Source: Aldrovandia affinis (lineage: Eukaryota; Chordata; Actinopteri; Notacanthiformes; Halosauridae). Taken from it: DNA of 64,000 bases. The stretch is from assembly GCA_029706075.1 (NCBI GenBank), contig JAINUG010000049.1, positions 3,052,418 through 3,116,417 on the forward strand, given 5' to 3'. The position numbers and the translations under genes are program-made. Of the stretch, positions 32,481-62,190 are shown in pieces. A model generated the notes under the pieces. It saw only the letters and a list, made by a program, of their open reading frames with translations. It did not search any database and was not told the origin of the DNA. Each line of letters starts with the position of its first letter. The stretch's first letter is position 1.

Positions 32481-34227
32481 CTAATCAGACTCATCTTCAG
32501 AGTCACAGTTCTGGCACAAATAAATTGCCTGGCCTGGGGTGCAAGCATCATGGGCCCACTTCTTGCATCTCACACACTGCACCCAAGTCTCTTTTGGCCG
32601 GCTGTTAGAAAATGGCTCCATGCAGACTAGGCAGAAGCACTCCTCTTCATCTGATGATGACTCATCTAATTTTCTTTTTACTCTTGCCTTTTTGTTCTCG
32701 GCAGATCCAGATTTTGCACATTGCTCCCCATCCTCCAGAAACAGCCTGTTTTTAGATTGTGATTTTTCCATTTGTAGTGCTTGCTTCACGGGTGTGTCTG
32801 TTAGAATTGCGGTTTTGCGCCGCTTTCTTCCATTATTAGTTTGTTTTCGGGGACCAGCTTTTGGAAATGGCCGGAGGTCCTCTGGAGTTGGTAGTCTGCT
32901 GCCAGCACTGGCATTGCTGGGTAAGGGTGAGCTGGCATGGGAACTGAACGAGTCTGTGTCTGTGCTTGTGCCTGGCAGGGCAGGGTTGGTACTGGGGCCT
33001 GGCAGGGCAGGGCGATCCGTAACATAGGATGGCGCAAAAAAAATACATCCCTGTTGTAAGGCTGCACCCCAGCTACCCTAAAGCCAGCCTGAATGTTCAA
33101 GGGGGTTGCCGCCACAGGATAAGCGATTGCCACAATCCCAGGAATGTCATAAATTGACATTGTTTTCCCAGGATTGTTCCTCATCCATGCATCACACGCT
33201 TTTTAGCGGCCTGTAGACAGACCTGTCTAAGGGTTGAAGCCGATGAGAGCAGTGGGGTGGGAATGACACCATAATTATGCCGTTTTCTTTGGCATAATTG
33301 AGTCCATCAATGGACATATGAGATTTGTGGTTGTCCAAAAGGAGTAAACATGGTTTCTCCTTTGAGCATTTTGTATGCTCAGTGAAATGTTTCAGGAAGT
33401 CAAAAAAGTGCACATCTTTCATCCACCCCGAGGGATTTGCCGATCCCCTGCTGCCAGGTGGTCCGCTGTTTAAAAATAGTCGCGGAAGTTGACACGGGAA
33501 ATATGAAATATGGAGGTATACTATTTCCTGTGGCTGACACAGCACAGGCCAGTGTGACAAGTGTCCCCCTTTCAGTGGAGGTCAGCGACCCTACTTGTTT
33601 GAATCCGTGTCTGGCCACTACTTTGTCAGGTTTATGGACCGTGGTCACCCCAGTTTCATCGTCATTCCATATGTCCCCTGGTCCAAATTGATGTCTGTCT
33701 AGCACATTTGCTAAATTGTCGAAGAAGGCATTGAGATTTTCTCGGTTGAAGCTACTAGCTCTGGCAAGGCTAGTTGCCTCAGGCTTTCTTAGCGACAGCA
33801 TTGGGTGCCGTTTTAAGAAGGCTGTAAACCACTCCGAGCTGGCCTTTTCTGTTTCTGCCCACATTGGTGTGAACTTCAGCTTGTGTGCCACAGCAAACTG
33901 GTAGGCAAGTCTTTTGATCTCACTTGGCGACAGACCAAAATAAATGTCAGCTGACCTAGCGATATAATGAACAAGCTGCATCTCCAAATCAGGTGGAAAT
34001 ACCCGCCATGGCTTTCTGTAGCCAACCACTGTTGTTGGCATGGCTGCCTGACTGACAATTTCTTCGCTGGTAACCTTTTCACAATACCGAGTATGGTAAT
34101 TTATATTAAAATCGTTTGCTGTGCTTCTGATTGATTTGTTCTCCAGCTTCACCTGTCTGACTGCCTTCAACATTATGTCAGGAGGTATGCTGCCATTCTC
34201 TGTCTTTCTTTTATAATTTCTCACCAT
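32481..34227 (-). pseudogene. pogo/jerky-type DDE transposase with C-terminal zinc-finger, frameshifted
   Basis: Reading from the likely start [12 protein letters not shown] at 34227: a Psq-like helix-turn-helix ([20 protein letters not shown]), a CENP-B-type HTH, then a DDE_1 catalytic core. The first acidic motif is IWNDDETG, the second is LLLLDNHKSH, and PPHCSHRLQPLD provides the third region. A C-terminal PHD-like cysteine/histidine cluster (CLVCMEPF, WVQCVRCKKWAHDAC, CQNCDSEDESD) ends at the TAG at 32481. The frame is broken near 33480 (at least two small indels), near 33190, in 32990-33050 and near 32800, so no functional protein can be made. The family cuts and pastes DNA at TA sites; the C-terminal finger may read chromatin or protein partners. 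Confidence 0.88.
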
Positions 34228-34718
34228 CATCTCACTTTCTTTTGTTCCTTTGTTTGTTTGTTCCTTTCTTACTTCCCTCAATGCTTCTTTCCTTCAAAAA
34301 CACATTTCAATTAGCCTCATGTGACAACTTGCCTCAAAGTCATTGAGACAACTTGCCCCAAATGGGCAATGTTTGTTAAATCTCAAGGCTAGTTCAACAT
34401 AGGACTGCAGCTAACATATCAAGAAACACCTTATTGTTTCCTTTATTCGGTACACAAATATAATTTTGAACATTTATACCTAACACAGTTTTATTACATA
34501 AAATGTAAGGTGCCATTTACTTACTTTTGAAGGAGACAAACACAAAACTTATGCTCACATGTAATTAAAGTGACCTTTGACCACCTGTGAAAAGGAATTT
34601 GAATCTGACCCTAGTTGCAACAAAGTAGCTATTTGATTTTTGAGATAGCGCCCCTGTGGTTGGAGGTATGAACAGTGTGACAACTTACCCGTGTGACAAC
34701 TTACCCCGCTCTCCCCTA

Positions 34719-36049: not shown

Positions 36050-36408
36050 GGGGCGTCCGATAGCATAGTGGTCTAATGCACCCGTATTGGCTGGTCCTTC
36101 ACAAGCGTGAGCTACCTATCACGGTCATGGGTCGAAAACCGACTGTACCAGACTGTTCCCTGGTGGGGAGCCCCGATCGGGGGCGCCGTTTGGCTGTCCA
36201 CCACAGGGGGAGGGGGGAGGGAGAGCTGGCATGAGCTCATCGAGGAGTGGTAGGGCGACCTCGTAAACAGGATTGGGCGAGTTCCGTCTCAGGAGGCTTG
36301 TCCCACAGAGGCGGGCGGTGAGTTCGTGGGGGAGGGTAAATCAAAAAATAAATGGGATATAATTGGCTAACAAATTGGGAGAAAAATGGGGAAAAAATCT
36401 GAAATATA
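36050..36408 (+). mobile_element. SINE family A copy with Tc1 in its tail
   Basis: A tRNA-like head (TCCGATAGCATAGTGGTCTA, GTCATGGGTCGAAAACC as the B box), body (GGGGAGCCCCGATCGGGGGC, TTTGGCTGTCCACCACAGGG) and tail (ATAATTGGCTAACAAATTGG, GAGAAAAATGGGG). The tail is cut by the deleted Tc1 element that starts at 36409. Confidence 0.88.
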
Positions 36409-36961
36409 CACTACCGTTCAAAAGTTTGGGGTCACCTTCCATCTGGACTATGGCTAATCGGGCACTCCTTCATTCTTCAGCAAGATAACGACCCAAAAAG
36501 CACCTTGAAGTTGTGCAAGAACTATCAGGTGAAGGAAGAATGTGAACAACAACTCAAACTAAAGACCTGGCCTGCCCAGTGTCCAGACCTCAATCCCATA
36601 GAACTTGTATGGGACAAACTGGAAAGGAAGAGTCAAAGCAAAACAACCCACAAGTTTCTCTGGGAATTGCTGCAGGATAGCTGGGAAAACATGTCGGGTG
36701 ATTTCCTGCTAAAACGTATTAACCGAATGGCCACTGTTTGTGAGGCTATTCTCACGCCAAAGGGTGACTATTTTGAGGAATCCAAGATTCAATTTTCAAT
36801 ATAATTTTCTTGAACATTTCTTTGATGTTCACTTTGTTCATTGTTACATGTGTTTTTTGTCATTTGAAAGTATTTACAGAAATGTATACGGTGTAAAGCA
36901 TTGTCAATTATGAGATAAAAATAGTTTCCAGCAGGTGACCCCAAACTTTTGAACGGTAGTG
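36409..36961 (+). mobile_element. deleted Tc1-like transposon, 553 bp
   Basis: Inverted ends CACTACCGTTCAAAAGTTTG (36409) and its complement (to 36961) are flanked by TA on both sides, the classic Tc1/mariner target. Inside is the C-terminal third of a transposase on the plus strand (36480-36803): CSARQ-like QQDNDPK is followed by WPAQCPDLNPIELVWDKLER, the third catalytic acidic region, and RINRMATVCEAI. The N-terminal two thirds are missing, so the element cannot move by itself but could be mobilised in trans through intact ends. Confidence 0.92.
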
Positions 36962-37054: not shown

Positions 37055-38348
37055 TGTCACGCCAAATTGTGTCCGGCTGCTCAGGAATTTGTCCGGGTGA
37101 CGTAATCGGAATTTTGGATTGTAGTTGCTATGCCAACATGACAAGCTTGCATTCCTGAGTGATGTGTCTGGGTGATGTCATTTAGCTATGAATAACCATT
37201 GCTTGCTCAACTGTAAAACTAGCTAGCTGGCTAGCTATGAACATAATATATGAATTATATAGCCAGCTAGCTACAAAGATAATAATATGCATTGTCTGTT
37301 CAGCTGTACAGTTACGTTAGCTGGCTAGCTATGAATATAATATATGGAAGTCATTACATTACAGCTAGGTGGCTAGCTACGAGTAAGCATTGCTTCCTCA
37401 GCTGTAAAACTAGCTAGCTGGCTAGCTATGAACATAATATATGAATTATATAGCCAGCTAGCTACAAAGATAATAATATGCATTGTTTGTTCAGCTGTAC
37501 AGCTAAGTTAGCTGGCTAGCTACGAATATAATATATGGAAGTCATTACATTACAGCTAGGTGGCTAGCTACAAATAAGCATTGCTTCCTCAGCTGTAAAA
37601 CTAGCTAGCTGGCTAGCTACGAACATAATATATGAATTATATTGCCAGCTAGCTACGAAGATAATAATATGCATTGTCTGTTCAGCTGTACAGTTAAGTT
37701 AGCTGGCTAGCTACGAATATAATATATGGAAGTCATTACATTACAGATAGGTGGTTAGCTACAAGTAAGCATTGCTTTCTCAGCTGTAAAACTAGCTAGC
37801 TGGCTAGCTACGAACATAATATATGAATTATATAGCCAGCTAGCTACGAAGATAATAATATGCATTGTCTGTTCAGCTGTACAGCTAAGTTAGCTGGCTA
37901 GCTACGAATATAATATATGGAAGTCATTACATTACAGCTAGGTGGCTAGCTACGAATAAGCATTGCTTGCTCAGCTGTGCAACTAGCTAGCTGGCTAGCA
38001 CTAGTGATGCTAGGTATTTCACTAGCCATCTAAGCAAGCGATCCATATATTATATTCATAGCTAGGCAGCTAACTTAGCTGTACATCTGAACAGACAATG
38101 CATATTATTATCTTCGTAGCTAGCTGGCTATATAATTAATATATTATGTTCATATATTATGTTCATAGCTAGCCAGCTAGCTAGTTTTACAGCTGAGCAA
38201 GCAATGGTTATTCGTAGCTAAATGACATCATCCGGACACATCACTCAGGAATGCGAGCTCATCATGGTGGCATAGCAACTACAGTCAAAAATTCTGATTA
38301 TGTCACCCGGACAAATTCCTGAGCAGCCGGACACAATTTGGCGTGACA
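37055..38348. mobile_element. foldback element with 191-bp internal tandem repeats
   Basis: The two ends are long inverted repeats: TGTCACGCCAAATTGTGTCC at 37055 and its complement ending at 38348. The inverted similarity runs inward for some 200 bp (GGAATTTGTCCGGGTGA, GATGTCATTTAGCTA, GCTTGCTCA). A 4-bp match GCAC abuts each end and may be the target duplication. The left-hand interior is a tandem array: CTGTAAAACTAGCTAGCTGG starts at 37211, 37402, 37593, 37784 and, changed, at 37975, always exactly 191 bp apart. After about 38020 the same motifs return in inverse orientation. There is no coding capacity, so it must depend on an outside transposase. The superfamily is not determined. Confidence 0.88.
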
Positions 38349-39835: not shown

Positions 39836-39879
39836 CTGCAAGAGACATGCCCAGTCAGATACTCAGCAACACTTCCATA

Positions 39880-40105
39880 AACACACCTCAGCTACACCTT
39901 CAACACACACCTCAGCCACACCTCCGACAGGTCCAGAGTCAGTACAACTCCAACACACACCTCAGCTACACCTCCGACACATCCAAAGTCAGTACAACTC
40001 CAACACACACCTCAGCTACACCTTCCACATCCACCTCAGCAACACCACCAACACACCTCAGCTACACCTTCCACACACATCTAGAGTCAGCTACAATTCT
40101 AACAC
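39880..40105. repeat. intronic minisatellite (CACCTCAGCTACACCTCC)
   Basis: Tandem, imperfect units built of AACACACACCTCAGCTACAC and CTCCGACA...GTCAGTACAACTCC, with a period of roughly 50 bp, in the last trpc7 intron. Confidence 0.75.
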
Positions 40106-40584
40106 ATGTACATTTACACTACGGCATTTCCTAGTAGACCGTGTTAAATATGGTACAGAGTCCAAGTATCAAAGTGAGTGAATAAAGGATGAAGATAATC
40201 CAATTAAGAGTGGATACACACAGAACTGAGTTAGACACCCACCCACCACCACGACCACCACCCTCGGCTGAAGCTGGTGAGGCCTGCCCTATATCCTGTC
40301 TCAGGAACAATAGTCTTCTCTTTGTCTCTGTGCCATGTCTGATGGACATGCAAAGCTCTGTGCTGATGGCTGTACAGCGATGTCACTTCCTGTTTCCCTC
40401 CCACAGACCATCTCTCTCTGTCATTGAGGAGTGCTGCAGCGCAGTCACACACACACTGTGTCTCTCTCTCTCTCACACACACACACAAACTCTCACACAC
40501 AGACTCACTGTCCCACTAATAACATCAGTGTGCAACAACTCTGTTCTAACTCTGTTCCCTGTCATTTTGATCAAACAGTGGTCT

Positions 40585-40898: not shown

Positions 40899-41262
40899 GC
40901 AGAGGAGGAGAGAAGGGAGGGAGGAAAGGAGAGGAGAGAGGGAGGAGAGGAGATGAATAGAGGAAAGAGGAAGGAAAGGAGAGGGATAGCGAAGAGAGAG
41001 AGGAAAGGAGTGAAGGAGAGAGGGAGGAACGGAGAGGAACAGAGGAGAGAGGGAGGAAAGGAGAAGAGGGTAGGACAGAGGGAGGAAAGGAGAGGAATAG
41101 AGGAGAGAAGATGGAGAGAAAGTAAGAAGAGAAAAGACAAAGAGAAAGAGGAGACGGGGAGAGGGGAGAGGAGAGAAGACAGCGAGGATATGTCAGAAAT
41201 AAATGAGAGTGGGAGAGGGGAGAGGAGGGAAAGAAAGAGTGAGAGGAGAGAGGAAAATAGTG
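40899..41262. repeat. GA-rich tract (polypyrimidine on the trpc7 strand)
   Basis: About 360 bp of GAGAGGA/GGAGG/AAAGGA sequence, almost free of C and T, directly upstream of the trpc7 exon at 40818-40893. Read as pre-mRNA it is a very long polypyrimidine tract. It is also a candidate for triplex (H-DNA) formation. Confidence 0.9.
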
Positions 41263-41706: not shown

Positions 41707-42557
41707 GGGCGAGCAGGAGGACTTGAATCAATTCTTTCACTGCTGGGACCTTGTCAGACTGCTAAAGGGCCCGTCTCTGTCAATGCGCACTTCAAGTGCT
41801 GAGGGAGGATCAATATTTCTGTCCCACCTACTGCACATAGCACACACACACACACACCCAACGCCTCTCACTCATTTACAAAAACAGGGCATCAATCATT
41901 ATGCATGATATTTCATAAAATGTCACTTTGATGATTGATTGGGTTGCTGGAAGATGCAATATACTTTCAGTATAATTATTTTCTAATACTGGCAAATGGA
42001 TGCATCTGCTGCCCCCTCATTTAAAACAAGCAGATGGAAAAGCAGAGCCTCTCCAGTGAGAGAATTTACTTCACATTTCAAAAACCCTTAAAATGTCACA
42101 CCTCAATGTTGTACCAATTCCTCACTCATCCGCTCATTCTTCTATCCATGCTTTTGTTGAATGGGTGACTGAACAGAGAGTGTGAAAATTAAATGTCAAA
42201 AAATCTCCTCATTATTGTAAAAATGGATGTTCCTTCCCTACTTCCACACATTGCCTTGGTTTCAAGAGTAAGCAACTTGCCCCTCACAAGACCTGCTTGA
42301 TTGGTCAGGGGTAACAGCCAATCACAAGGAGAGGCCTTGATCAGGGATTGCAGAGAACGTAGGAATTATGGACCTAATGGTGAAAGTGATTACTCTCTGT
42401 GTTCATATTGCCTTATCTCTGGGTGCAGTGACCGATCCTGGTGCCTGATCTGAATACTGGTGAATATCACACACAGGACCTGGTGTTTAACTAGCTGTTT
42501 ATTCTGTGAGAATACATGCCAGACCCTGGGCCAGTTTTCTGCACCTTGATGAGATGT

Positions 42558-42660
42558 GCACACACATGCACACACATACGCACACACACATGTATGCACG
42601 CACACACAAGTGTGCACGCACACACACACATACACACACGCACACACACGCATGCGCAAA

Positions 42661-42696
<36 letters not shown>

Positions 42697-42720
42697 TGCA
42701 CACACACACACACACACATG

Positions 42721-42754
<34 letters not shown>

Positions 42755-42755
42755 T

Positions 42756-42786
<31 letters not shown>

Positions 42787-42822
42787 TACACACACACACA
42801 CACACACGCACACACACACGCT
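42558..42822. repeat. AC-rich microsatellite beside a trpc7 donor site
   Basis: An AC/ACGC/ACAT array of about 265 bp. On the trpc7 strand it is a GT array that begins within about 6 nt of the donor of the 81-bp exon (42828-42908). Confidence 0.95.
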
Positions 42823-52902: not shown

Positions 52903-53849
52903 TTCACACAGTGGCCACATCTCCATGTCTCACGTGCGCACCGCGCTGGCATGCTGAATAAAGCAAGTCACATCCCCACAGCCTCACGTCTGTCTGTCTG
53001 TCAACCGTGCATCTACCAAACAAACCCTAGTATCATTTAAGAGTCAAAATGATCACTTTTACCATTAATAGTAATTACTATCTGGCCTACGGTCCTGATA
53101 CTACACAAATAACTACACTTGAAACACATAAACTCTGAACACACAGAGCTATTTTGGGATAATCAAATTATTGGAAAGAAAATGTAATACAAGAATATGA
53201 CTGCAAAAAAAAAAATACAGACCAAATGCTCATCATGTGACCATCAGAGCAATAATTCTGTTTTAAGTGTGACACGGAGGAAAAGGGGGTTTCGATTTCT
53301 GTCAGCCTGGCGATGTGAAACCAAGCGAATCGCCTGGCTCTGCTCCGCTTCTCCTCCAAATGAAGACAGACTGTGGGAATTCAATCTGCCCACCCTCGGT
53401 GGAGACGCCACAAGGGAAAATCCAATCACGCTTCGGCACAACTCTGTGAGGAGAATGAGTTATGGCCCAACTTTGGACAAGTTAAGCACTCTTTTTTTTT
53501 TTTCTACTAGCCTCGGGCATGACCACAGGACTCCTAAAAACAGGCAGGACAGGAGGAGAAAGCCACCTGCTTTTTGAATCTAAACCTCAAATCTGTTGAA
53601 AGAATGTGCCAGGACAGCTCTCCAATCTTGAAAACGGGTCAGGTGTGGAACCCAGGTTACAATGGGACTATACTGTATTGACTGAGACATTCACATGGTG
53701 AAGCCAAGGTTGTATTGGATTGTCTGAATGCATATGCTTTGGATAAAAGCGTCTGCTGAATGATTGTATTCTATTGTATTGTATTGTGCTATGTAGACCG
53801 AGACAATGGTGGTGAATTTGGGGTTATACTGTGTAGATTGAGAGACTCA

Positions 53850-56416
<2,567 letters not shown>

Positions 56417-56779: not shown

Positions 56780-57013
56780 CGTAGGTGAAGTAGGCCACGT
56801 CTGCAGGCAGGGAGGCGTTGGTGAGGTCATTGTTGGACACGTGCAGGTCCACGTACAGCTGAGCCTTGGAGGCCTTGAGGAAGGCCATGAAGCGGGCGGT
56901 GAAGGACGCAACGAAGATGGACAGCATGCCAAAGTCCAGAATGTTCCACAGGTGCATCAGGTACTCCCGTGGTCCATCGGCCCAGATCTCTTTACACTCT
57001 GACCAGATCATCC
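56780..57013 (-). CDS. trpc7: trpc7 exon: end of S2, S3 and S3-S4 region (shortest form)
   Basis: The conserved exon is 234 nt with donor TACG|GTCAGT at 56779. The acceptor closest to it is CTCTCAG at 57014. It completes the glycine codon of KWVLG and encodes [40 protein letters not shown] (S3) and, further on, [19 protein letters not shown] joins the preceding exon as in mammalian TRPC7. The exon's first 30 nt, together with the intron end, are repeated 13 more times upstream (see 56986-57573). The acceptor may therefore lie at any of 14 positions up to 57560, which would give exons of 234 to 780 nt, all in frame. Confidence 0.93.
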
Positions 57014-57573
57014 CTGAGAGAGACAGGATCTCTTTACACTCTGGCAAGATCATCCCTGAGAGAGACAGGATCTCTTTACACTCTGACAAGATCATCCCTG
57101 AGAGAGACAGGATCTCTTTACACTCTGACAAGATCATCCCTGAGAGAGACAGGATCTCTTTACACTCTGACCAGATCATCCCTGAGAGAGACAGGATCTC
57201 TTTACACTCTGACCAGATCATCCCTGAGAGAGACAGGATCTCTTTACACTCTGACAAGATCATCCCTGAGAGAGACAGGATCTCTTTACACTCTGACCAG
57301 ATCATCTCTGAGAGATAAAGGATCTCTTTACACTCTGACCAGATCATCCCTGAGAGAGACAGGATCTCTTTACACTCTGACCAGATCATCCCTGACAGAG
57401 ACAGGATCTCTTTACACTCTGACCAGATCATCCCTGAGAGAGACTGGATCTCTTTACACTCTGACAAGATAATTCCTGAAAGAAACAAGATCTCTTTACA
57501 CTCTGACCAGATCATCTCTGAGAGATAAAGGATCTCTTTACACTCTGACCTGATCATCCCTGAAATACAAAGG
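56986..57573 (-). repeat. trpc7: 42-bp minisatellite spanning the trpc7 splice acceptor, 14 copies
   Basis: Fourteen units start exactly 42 bp apart (plus-strand ATCTCTTTACACTCTGA at 56986, 57028, 57070 and so on to 57532). On the transcribed strand each unit holds a pyrimidine tract plus AG (mostly CTGTCTCTCTCAG) followed by GGATGATCTGGTCAGAGTGT and AAAGAGAT, the start of the exon. The AG is kept in all 14 units (57014-57015 up to 57560-57561). The entire array has no stop in the gene frame and would encode 14-residue units of the form [14 protein letters not shown]. Variants include [19 protein letters not shown] and LYLSE. The most distal acceptor (TTTGTATTTCAG) is the only one attached to ordinary intron sequence and may be the ancestral site. 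Confidence 0.97.
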
Positions 57574-59160
57574 ATACACAAACACACATACACACACAAG
57601 GCCGTATCCAGGAGTTGAGAATTGGTACAAAAAAAAAAAAAAAAATGTAAATGTAGACCTAGTCCCTCTAGGGAGAAATGTCAAAGAGAAATATTTTATG
57701 TAATCAGTCTACCCTTATAGGTAATTCACTACAAGTGTAGTAGACTGTCATGATTTTATGAATGGCCACTGGTAATGTACACTAAAATGTAGCTAGCTTT
57801 GTGCCAATCACCACTGTTAATGTATGTTATGTTAGCTAACATTAGCCTAAATGAGTCTATCAGCCATTAGCCACTGTAGTCTGACTAAGAAGTGATTTGT
57901 GTAACAGTCAGCTAGACAGAGACAGCTACATTTGGCGAGCAACTACACAAAACTACACACAAAGTAGCTATCGATAGATGATCTCTGTAATCTGGTTATA
58001 ATACAAGCAGTCAACTTTTTTATAATGTGAGAGATCTCTACACCTACATCATGCTTCACTTGGCTTCAGATCAGCAGTCTGAGCTACAACTCTTGCTGTG
58101 CATTAAAGCTGTCCCAAGCGTCACCACGTCATCAGGACGGTTCCACTTCACCACCACACACACACAGAAGTAATGACGATGGCGGTGATCAGGCGAGCAA
58201 GTGGTAATCTTGGCTTTGTACAAAATCTTTCCTATGCCGTATTGAAGTCATTTTATGTACAGTAGTTCACCATTTTTATTCAGTATTACACTGAATCAGT
58301 ATGAAAAATTATTACAACAGACAAATACAGAGGTCATGACTTCGGTGTCCTCAATTGTAGATACGGCCATGTGAACACATATGTCAAACAACCTGTTACA
58401 AGAACACACACGCATGCACACACTTGCACACACAAACACACACAGACATACAAACAAGTCTTGCTAATGCTTTGGAACAGTGGAAAATAGCAAACACACC
58501 TCACATTCACATAATGGGAGGATAGTGAGAAAAGGCATGGTGTGGAAAGAGAGCGAATCAGCTCAACTATTCAGTATTCCCGCTGTGGGTCTTTTTTTTC
58601 CATCTCAGCGGATGGTTGGTGAAATAAAACCTGTCAGTGTTTCTCTCCAGACTTCAGCGGCATTATTTCAACAGTAGAATCTGTCTGACCCGAGAGACAG
58701 CCACTCTATCAACACTCTGTGTGTTCTCTGCCAAATGCATCGCACTTACTCTGAACGCACTGGGAGAGGATGGGAGACCCAAATTCACTCAATACCCACC
58801 ATTACTCACAATGCACTGACTGAGCGCGCAGGTCCAATCTTACAAAATACCCATCGTTACCCACAATGCACTGACTGAGCTCACAAATCCAAGCTTATGC
58901 AAGAACATTTTAGTATTTTTATCTTATCTTTCTCTTATCTTTTTTTTTGTGAGGTGGCTTCTACGAGTGTTCCACCTCAGATTCAGCAAATGCTCATAAC
59001 TTCAGAAAACTGTCGTAAATGACAACGTAAACATGCTGAATGCCAGGTCTTCTTAAATGAGTGCGCGTTCATGTGATTTGCGAATTAGCATAATTAACGC
59101 CCCAATAATGCTATATAAGGTTAAGCGTCCCGCCCCATTTTCATAGGAAAGTAATTCATA
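57574..59160 (-). other. trpc7: trpc7 intron segment
   Basis: Intron between the S1-S2 and S2-S3 exons. It contains an A run at 57630-57645 and short CA-rich stretches at 58160-58170 and 58400-58445. No gene is recognised. Confidence 0.6.
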
Positions 59161-59445: not shown

Positions 59446-60121
59446 GTCAGGAGCTGAGTCTCTGTTACACACACCGACGAGTGAATATGAGATGCTTATA
59501 TCGATATTGTAGTATTATACCATAGCCACAATTGAAACGAATGATAATATATTAATGAATTATGAATGATATTATCCTACAATTTGAAAAGAAAACAGTC
59601 AAACATAGGCCTACAATTGTCAAACAGGATACTCTCAAAATGATTATACATTATGAATTCTATCATTTATCGTGTAATTTCTATATTCAAACTCAACAGT
59701 TCTTCTAAGTAACGAAATAGACACAATCCATTAGTCAAAAACAAAGTTGTTTTGCTTTGGAGAACGGCAGGCAAATTGTACGTATGACTCGTACGACAGC
59801 TCTGGACCACTCGTAAATCTTGTTCGTACCTATGAGAAAATTCTAAATACAAGAAAATTGGTGAATGCGGAAAATTCTCGTAAATCACTCGCAGAGTGAC
59901 TTATGAACAAATTTGTGCGTAAAAGCGGTTGGCCCATTGTGCATCTGGCCCATTGTGACTGAGAATGCACTCAGTTCATTTGGTGCAGAATGCATTTGAG
60001 TTCACAAACTCAAGCTTACCAAATACCCAGAAATCACAGTGTTAAATTACAAACCCAATTTACCCCATACCCATTATTACGCACAATTCATAGAGAGGGA
60101 GAAGACACAGACGGTACTCAC

Positions 60122-60338
60122 CCAGCACCCACTTCATAATGAGCATCTCAGTCCAGGAGAACTGCGTGGTCTTCACCCGGAAGATCTGGCGGGGGTGGTC
60201 AGTGATGGTCTCGTTGGGCAGGTTCTTGACTCCCTCAAAGCGGTCAGAGGCATTCACCACGAGGAGACCCAGGAAGATGGTGAAGGACACAGCGTGGGCC
60301 ACAAACTTCATGAAGGGACTGCGGAGAATCTGACCCAC
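60122..60338 (-). CDS. trpc7: trpc7 exon: pre-S1, S1, extracellular loop and S2
   Basis: Acceptor CACCTGCAG at 60339, donor G|GTGAGT at 60121. It is 217 nt (72 codons plus one base). It encodes [40 protein letters not shown] (S1 and start of loop), [20 protein letters not shown] and [13 protein letters not shown] (S2). PNET holds an N-glycosylation sequon, as in TRPC3/6/7. [17 protein letters not shown] is closest to TRPC7. It is the most 5' exon inside the window; the N-terminal ankyrin and linker exons (about 45% of the protein) are expected beyond 64000. Confidence 0.96.
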
Positions 60339-60342
60339 CTGC

Positions 60343-60450
60343 AGGTGTAAACACAATGCATTTACCCAGTCACAGGTGCAAACACAATACATTTACCCAG
60401 TCACAGGTGCAAACACAATACATTTACCCAGTTAGAGGTGAAAACAGTAC
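60343..60450. repeat. 31-bp tandem repeat abutting a trpc7 acceptor
   Basis: CACAGGTGCAAACACAATAC...TTTACCCAGT recurs three times with the unit nearest the exon diverged. On the transcribed strand these units carry TTGTGTTTGCACCTG, the pyrimidine tract that ends in the acceptor CACCTGCAG at 60339. Confidence 0.85.
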
Positions 60451-62190
60451 CAGCTGATCTAGCTACTGGTGCATACAGAACCATCTGACCCAGTTACCGA
60501 AACAACCAGGACCAGTTAATCTAGCTAGAGGTGCACATAGTACCATCTGACCCAGTTACAGGTGCGCACAGAACCATTTGGCCCCGTTACATGAGGAAGA
60601 ACTCAAGCGACTCAGCCACAGAAGCAAACAGATGCATCTAAACAGCCATGCCTAGAGTATATTCCATACAGCAAGTATAATGCATCCTATAAACTCAAAA
60701 AAATGACATTTAAAAAATGACCTGCACTAGATCACAAGGCTTATTCAGTCTAATAAACGCACATTCACAAAAGCATATTCCACTAATTATGTTAGTCATT
60801 ACTCGTTTTCGTATGCTCCTGAAAATGATAGCAATAAAGTATTTTTTTAGTCCAGAACTAATGGACTGCTCTCATAATTATATATTCTTATGCTCTAAAA
60901 TCTGACGATATACGCTTGGCACAGTACATTAAACGACTTGCTTTTCCCTGGGTTTAGTTTGCTCTGTTTTAGAGCTGGTAATAATGTTGGGTTTAAGGGC
61001 CGTCAGCATCTAGATGCGATTCAGTCAATCGGCCTCAGCTGGCTGGCAGTGACGGAGGACGAGAGGAGTCTAATCGCTCCCGCTCTCCCGTGTCGCATCC
61101 GTCGAGGGAAATGCGCGCGCGCCTCCTCGTCTGCTCCATTACCCGTGGAAATGGCACCACCTTCTCCAGAGAGCGCAGCCACGTAGCTGCAGAATCGGAA
61201 ATCGGCAACGGGAAAAAACCTATTTAAATTTCAACAGCCTCGACAAAACCCCCGTATTCCATTACTCACCGATTACTGTGACGGAACAGACGGCTGCTCC
61301 ACCTGACAACAAGTCACGCGCAACGGCAAGTCACGCGCAAAGGCAGCATGGCGGCTCCGGCTTTCGGCACTGCCTCTAAGGCGTTGGCTAAGGAACTGTA
61401 ACCAGGGTCCTGAGAGCGAATCCAGGGTTTGGCACTTTGGCGCTAATGTTTGAGTTTCTGAAAATGAGATTCCAGCTGTCCTCCAAATGAATGATAAAGT
61501 GTCATTAAAAGACGGTACACATTACCCAGAGTGACTGCATGGGGAAATCACGCTCCCAGTTAAGAAACTTCACATATGTCACAAATCACAGTTAGAACTA
61601 GAACTTAACTAAAAAAATAAAAAAAGATGATAATGCAAGTCATTATTCCCTAAGCAAACCAGCTGAAGAGAAAGGCCTTTTTCCCCCAGCGAATATGCCT
61701 GACTGCAGGGCGGTGCACAGCTCTTGCCCCTGCCTGGAGAACTAGAATACAACATCATAGAATCAACTTTATTTATACCCACTGGGAAAAATATACTGTT
61801 ACCAGCAGCACTGCAGCATTCATGACAATAAGACACACCACAAATGGAACAATATGTGGTCTGATGTAGGCTTCCAATGGAATTGAAAAATTCTAACATG
61901 CCACGATGATAAAGCCCTCAAAACATAACGAATGCATGACAGACAGGATAATTGTGATACAGGAGAACAGGAAGCGTCGCTCCTGGGGCTCTGCAGCCCT
62001 GATTGCGGGAGTCTGATGTCACAGGCTGATTGTGCCAAACTGAGACACAACTCAGAGAGGATTAAATCTCCCAGCACCCTTCAGTATCTCTGCACAGCCA
62101 TTCGCTGAAACTCATCTGCAGGTCATCAGACCGGCATCGGAAAGGGAGCCCAAATACGAATGTCCTTCAAAAATCCCATGCACAAATACA
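60451..62190 (-). other. trpc7: trpc7 intron segment, no gene seen
   Basis: Upstream of the first trpc7 exon visible here. No exon with TRPC similarity is apparent. A CpG-rich patch at 61070-61360 (GCGCGCGCC, CACGCGCAA repeated) could be a regulatory region or alternative promoter; this is weak. Confidence 0.5.

Follow-up and report, generated by a model that had tools for sequence, protein, structure and literature searches.

When a complete 3′ splice site is present many times over at the start of one exon, which copy is joined to the exon upstream? The question is raised by trpc7 of the fish Aldrovandia affinis, in a 64,000-nt stretch of contig JAINUG010000049.1 (hereafter the window; coordinates count from its first base), where 14 near-identical acceptors within one intron provide a natural test of whether the choice falls on the first AG past the branch site or is made by the downstream exon. 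As each acceptor keeps the reading frame, every splicing outcome can be read.

A minisatellite across the acceptor of trpc7 exon B

A 42-bp unit made up of 14 nt of intron and 28 nt of exon is repeated 14 times across the 3′ splice site of trpc7 exon B (56986..57573, minus strand), with the consensus CCTGTCTCTCTCAG + GGATGATCTGGTCAGAGTGTAAAGAGAT. TRF called this array at 56985-57563 as a 42-bp unit in 13.8 copies with 94% matches, 0% indels and a score of 1018, and on the minus strand 14 intact CAGs stand in register 42 nt apart, from the G at 57560 down to that at 57014. It is a boundary-spanning repeat with an acceptor-side unit (3′ intron end plus 5′ exon part) and an AG in 14 of 14 copies. 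Pairwise identity among the units averages 92.9% (range 81-100%). They differ from the consensus at 24 of 588 sites. The intron side accounts for 13 of these (in 196 sites) and the exon side for 11 (in 392), a split for which Fisher's test gives P 0.04 with units that are not independent; counted as variable columns (6/14 intron side, 6/28 exon side), P is 0.17. Three changes are common to units 2 and 7, and a G to T change is common to units 3, 8, 11, 12 and 13, as in a minisatellite with turnover. At the edges, unit 1 has five differences from the consensus and unit 14 has none.

The host gene was identified by a protein search, which led to fish TRPC7, and by alignment of Anguilla rostrata TRPC7 along the minus strand. 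Among the matches listed, the top one was a sturgeon model with duplicated exons (P0001), followed by Anguilla rostrata as the closest normal TRPC7. The high score of P0001 came from the duplicated exon stretch in its own model, and the array was rejected as its source. Using the Anguilla protein, tblastn placed a first piece from 85441 (the alignment start) and further exon starts at 77754, 60338, 57013, 54115, 44906, 44427, 42908, 40893 and 39835. These ten coding pieces match without stops, seven of them at 92-100% identity and the remaining three at 84, 82 and 79% (the 84 and 79% alignments overrun the exon end), with the last exon 97.8% identical; a working channel is therefore apparently under constraint. 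One exon, of approximately residues 313-366, was not found by tblastn and may lie inside 5 kb of N at 64001-69000. Pfam assigned exon B to Ion_trans and found no domain in exon A. Exon B also matches the TRPC3 and TRPC6 structures; in TRPC channels it corresponds to the S2-S3 region.

Exon A (60122..60338, minus strand) ends in ...MLIMKWVL plus the first base of a Gly codon and is followed by a GTGAGT donor from 60121. The frame is consistent across the junction, exon A reading ...KWVL G/GTGAGT and exon B starting GG ATG ATC TGG. A preliminary description of this DNA had named the gene trpc7, placed the donor at 60121 and proposed that a minisatellite of exact 42-bp period had captured the intron-exon junction, with some 14 nt of intron, some 28 nt of exon and an AG in each of 14 units; the indel-free TRF call, the register of intact CAGs, the exon A boundary and the protein matches bear out all of these points.

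Both ends of the array carry ATC (gtgtATC/CTTTG... and ...GAGATC/TGGGCC), and these three shared bases weakly suggest how it may have begun. A short duplication of 42 nt over the junction, by slippage or end joining on the shared ATC, could have been followed by repeat expansion and turnover via unequal exchange, giving a minisatellite across the boundary like the 'mirages' of amphioxus. No boundary-spanning array was found at the same junction of seven paralogue exons, so the array probably arose at the trpc7 locus; in one of the seven (L018) a short array lies within the intron, some 10 nt before the boundary. Exon B was not found in the trpc7 paralogue on contig C1930, where a long open frame was rejected as the product of an N run. 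A DNA search of the 1.22-Gb genome, which skipped simple repeats, returned the array locus at 100% and otherwise only two weak matches (67-68%), both on contig C413. The C413 sequence was rejected as a second copy because it is a purine-rich array beside what appears by eye to be the acceptor of another gene, without exon sequence. This array (L002, approximately 481-1990) is about 1.5 kb long, abuts an apparent minus-strand acceptor of an unnamed gene and is confined to the intron.

Boundary repeats at exon A and in other genes

The preceding exon also has an acceptor-spanning array, an older one (60328..60591, minus strand) with 31-bp units of 20 nt of intron and 11 nt of exon. Over its eight upstream registers, 57 of 88 exon-part bases match at period 31, against 17-28 at 24 other periods (20 to 44). 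The AG is kept in two of the eight upstream copies, and every one of the eight has a frameshift, a stop or both. Two upstream copies have CTGGGTCAGAT, an 11-mer that occurs nowhere else in the window on either strand; exon A itself now reads GTGGGTCAGAT. The copies thus carry CTG (Leu) where exon A now has GTG; of 104 listed proteins with a fitting pattern, 95 have Leu ahead of GQI, eight Ile, one Phe and none Val, so that the copies seem to retain the older exon base. None of the upstream registers (0/8) can yield a product that is both in frame and free of stops, so productive splicing at exon A should use the proximal acceptor, and it is mainly because exon A carried a boundary array while this acceptor stayed productive that we favour proximal use at exon B. 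The two arrays look like two ages of the same process, one decayed (2/8 upstream AGs) and one fresh (14/14), and having them in neighbouring exons bears on the ageing of such arrays and on the origin of new intron ends.

The preliminary description could name no precedent for an array of acceptors. This has to be corrected, as amphioxus mirages are tandem copies of intron-exon boundaries and donor-side versions occur in human genes. Mirages are described as minisatellite-like tandem duplications over intron-exon boundaries, with units of 10-72 bp in Adh3; in BflGb6 the 3′ intron end and 5′ exon part are duplicated, two haplotypes having 6 and 3 units, and RT-PCR by the authors suggested that regular splicing was undisturbed (PMC3087553). 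Further amphioxus cases are PGBD5, Adh and TnC (PMC3902484). As far as these accounts go, mirages (Adh3, TnC, BflGb6, BflGb9, PGBD5) resemble the trpc7 array in being boundary-spanning tandem copies, many with splice signals; the trpc7 array differs in its fish host, its 42-bp units, its 14 copies (6 and 3 in BflGb6), its full set of AGs and its in-frame, open units. The mirage reports seen concern cephalochordates, so the fish host is a difference of range and not of structure, and boundary minisatellites are extended from amphioxus to a fish.

In human ABCA7 the donor GT of exon 18 is also the start of a 25-bp repeat. Retention of a single unit amounts to 2 +/- 1%, and longer repeats lead to more skipping of exon 19 (PMC5954066). 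This intron 18 VNTR is like the trpc7 array in that a short tandem unit lies at a splice site and use of a later copy means retention of whole units; it is unlike it in lying on the donor side, with an out-of-frame unit, approximately 12 to 427 copies and, in the account used here, no exon sequence described in the unit. The minisatellite of IFI6 (6-16) is described as supplying multiple splice donor sites (Turri 1995), and like that of trpc7 it gives several splice sites per transcript, but donors rather than acceptors. The trpc7 unit carries an acceptor AG and its tract and so falls outside the donor-side class. NAGNAG acceptors likewise offer a frame-preserving choice among nearby AGs; these AGs are 3 nt apart and have one common tract, whereas in trpc7 each of the 14 AGs has its own tract and the spacing is 42 nt, which sets the array outside that class. 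Intron gain via tandem duplication of proto-splice sites (PMC2891723) also copies splice signals by tandem duplication, but starts within an exon and makes a new intron, whereas the trpc7 array multiplies an existing boundary.

We recognised no vertebrate acceptor-side array in the literature searched, a search made mostly at listing level and thin on subscription journals, and hence no proof of absence. Against these searches, the fish host, the 14 intact acceptors, the full preservation of frame and two further boundary duplications in trpc7 are new. The preliminary description thus stands on the gene, the captured junction, the 14 AGs and the split of predictions discussed below, and falls on the matter of precedent; it contained neither the in-frame length of the unit nor the exon A array.

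Reading frame, splice signals and acceptor choice

The unit of 42 nt corresponds to 14 codons, with a stop in none of the 14 copies, and a 302-residue open frame runs from the intron through the array into exon B. Because 42 is a multiple of three and the copies are free of stops, all 14 acceptors keep frame, adding 0 to 13 blocks of 14 residues. Use of the proximal acceptor (copy 14, AG at 57014..57015, minus strand) yields the normal TRPC7 exon of 234 nt (56780..57013, ...FTY), and use of the distal acceptor (copy 1, AG at 57560..57561) an open exon of 780 nt (56780..57559) with 13 extra blocks. Splicing to upstream copies would insert the blocks after WVL, a point that we take, from TRPC structures, to lie in helix S2 near its cytoplasmic end.

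An insert at the exon A/B junction occurs in none of the 120 listed proteins of TRPC7 or TRPC7-like type, out of 1,846 that passed E. In 111 of them a WVL-type triplet is followed directly by GMIW, in eight the pattern began earlier (with the duplicated stretch in P0001) and the junction itself is intact, and one (P0112) reads CVLGMIW. The W of GMIW is present in 120 of 120 and has been lost in 6 of the 14 array units, to R in one and to L in five. In a protein search drawn from the array region, none of the 8,000 candidates scored reached E<=1e-3. We found no evidence of purifying selection on the repeated peptide, since five of the six distinct exon-side changes alter the amino acid and 84% are expected to do so without protein constraint, and none of selection on the AGs, all 14 of which survive in 56% of neutral simulations (12 changes). 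Retention of 14 AGs without a stop has a neutral P of 0.21; adding the absence of indels gives 0.03-0.06 if indels make up 10-15% of changes, a ratio taken as general background. Intactness of AGs, frame and indel-free length is therefore somewhat above neutral expectation, a weak hint that the array may be translated.

Splice signals were scored with general acceptor, donor and branch-site weights rather than with those of a dedicated tool. On this scale the 14 array acceptors score 8.2 to 12.1 and four other trpc7 acceptors 8.4 to 12.5, and all 14 array AGs rank in the top 2% of 4,106 minus-strand AGs. An AG-free zone of 97 nt precedes copy 1 only, with 8-14 nt before copies 2-14. Candidate ancestral branch sites lie at 57616..57648 (minus strand): catttAcat (A at 57648) and ttctcAact (A at 57616), separated by a T run, are 89 and 57 nt from copy 1 with no intervening AG. 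Ahead of copy 1 the top candidate scores 3.2 and is separated from it by no AG; ahead of 57014 the top candidate is ggatgAtct, which lies 37 nt away and scores 2.6 with four AGs between. All seven other trpc7 acceptors in the window have an AG-free branch-site candidate, that of exon E scoring only 2.5.

The usual choice of acceptor is the first AG (PMC1431707, PMC7317903); an AG lying no more than 12-15 nt from the branch site may be skipped, and when AGs are close together the base before each one influences the choice (PMC1431707). Given these exceptions, ggatgAtct may serve as a weak branch site. Since the distal AG alone has a long AG-free branch-site region, pure scanning would therefore give a 182-residue insert, and the signals by themselves favour the distal AG, contrary to our preferred reading. 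The split of predictions in the preliminary description, by which scanning leads to the distal AG and exon-proximal choice to the normal protein, is supported. An RNA hairpin joining the distal branch site to the proximal AG was considered and rejected, as 100 of 100 shuffles fold at least equally well (z = +3.1).

Our preferred reading, to which we give a probability of about 0.55, is that the main mRNA is spliced from donor 60121 to the proximal AG of the boundary-spanning minisatellite, at 57014. The 13 upstream copies would then leave with the intron and normal TRPC7 would be made. The exonic GGATGATCT of each copy lies 37 nt ahead of the following exon start and may serve as a weak branch site, so each copy could be an acceptor that is complete, if weak. 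Exon definition, working from the downstream donor, would favour an exon of 234 nt over one of 780 nt. Were upstream acceptors used at a low level, blocks of 14 residues would be added in frame. This reading is supported by exon A as a natural control, by the stop-free, apparently constrained coding pieces, by exon-side changes that alter amino acids about as often as expected without constraint, by the insert-free listed TRPC7 proteins, by the loss of W from six units, by the published mirages and by the low unit retention in ABCA7. Evidence against it comes from the AG-free zone and better branch site at the distal AG, from the first-AG rule and from the intact, open array. Boundary repeats can also disturb splicing, since repeat length in ABCA7 raises exon skipping and IFI6 is said to use its repeat donors.

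If the ancestral branch site and T-rich tract still worked, 57560 would be used and most TRPC7 would have 182 extra residues near the cytoplasmic end of S2, with the channel altered or the allele a tolerated or harmful variant. The long AG-free zone found before copy 1 only, the better branch-site candidates there, the first-AG rule, the entirely open, in-frame array and the weak excess of intactness all speak for such scanning, but we consider it unlikely: the insert is absent from all 120 listed TRPC7-type proteins, the exon A array is unreadable from its upstream copies, mirages elsewhere are reported with normal splicing, and an internal exon of 780 nt, unusually long for vertebrates, would be needed. 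The similar scores, even spacing and frame-keeping of the 14 acceptors would equally suit the use of several in parallel, giving graded TRPC7 isoforms in steps of 14 residues that vary with allele length, and IFI6 repeat units are said to act as alternative donors that give three mRNAs. This we regard as distinctly doubtful, given that not even one extra block occurs in any of the 120 listed proteins and that no protein was returned by the array-region search.

It is also conceivable that the array is shorter or single-copy in raw reads or in most animals. Minisatellites vary in length, and one BflGb6 mirage was apparently misassembled in the amphioxus draft; assembly error is nevertheless unlikely for a 588-bp array inside a 5.86-Mb contig whose units carry distinct, ordered variants, and we hold an artefact or a private allele to be very improbable. 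Beyond the preferred use of the proximal AG for the main mRNA, we tentatively suggest, with low confidence, that the locus could be a length-variable, frame-preserving acceptor ladder, in which splicing and allele length would together set the number of 14-residue blocks at the inner end of S2, an acceptor-side counterpart of the IFI6 and ABCA7 repeats.

Other boundaries in trpc7 and in sampled exons

The donor boundary of exon C (53826..53875, minus strand; 25 nt of exon and 25 nt of intron) has a diverged second copy at 53670..53718 (minus strand), in which 41 of 50 aligned columns are identical and the GT is kept; the score of 52 compares with a mean of 15 and a maximum of 23 in 500 shuffles. 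The stretch between the two copies is, judging by its motif, presumably part of a SINE tail. Three successive trpc7 exons have boundary duplications.

Exons elsewhere in the genome were sampled in two sets. The TRPC-relative sample comprised 26 exon rows, made up of seven exon B paralogue loci (eight matches, one being the window itself) and 19 of 30 loci from 54 matches, with four first coding exons, five further trpc7 exons and two repeated loci excluded; trpc7 exon 2 itself is among the 26 rows, as L035. Twenty of the 26 acceptors score at least 5 and none of these 20 has a junction copy, nor does any of the 26 donors, which were placed by score only. A junction match at L031 was rejected as a false acceptor inside a pyrimidine array. 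The phosphatase sample consisted of 20 exon regions, hand-picked near one profile position out of 153 matches, in which 13 acceptors score at least 5. Two of the 20 regions gave matches, L071 with an acceptor score of 12.3 and L053 with one below 0; both are simple runs of TC or TG, and no other junction copy was found in this sample; L071, a plain TC run, is the only strict-test match at a credible acceptor among the sampled exons. As far as this small sample goes, the strict test being negative at credible acceptors bar L071, boundary duplication is not supported as a general habit of the genome. Applied to trpc7 itself, the strict test recovers two boundaries, the acceptor of exon B and the donor of exon C, and misses the array at exon A, which has decayed; similarly decayed cases elsewhere could escape it.

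Of the eight trpc7 acceptors in the window, four have a tandem array with a period of at least 10 within 30 nt, compared with 13% of positions (P 0.013, post hoc), and three have one within 10 nt (P 0.06). The same count gives 3 of 26 TRPC-relative rows (L018, L046 and L031, the last with its false acceptor) and 0 of 20 phosphatase regions. A polypyrimidine array (minus strand) at 40901-41132 stands directly before the exon G acceptor, a TAG, and a 24/50-bp array at 39862-40106 ends about 25 nt before the exon H acceptor. On the donor side, a CA/GT repeat at 42557-42819 starts directly after the exon F donor. Elsewhere in the window are a satellite-like array of 4.3 copies of 191 bp at 37183-37999, a frame at 36403-36804 that by eye resembles a piece of a Tc1-type transposase, and long minus-strand frames at 32481-34293 that, also by eye, resemble a pogo/Tigger-type transposase.
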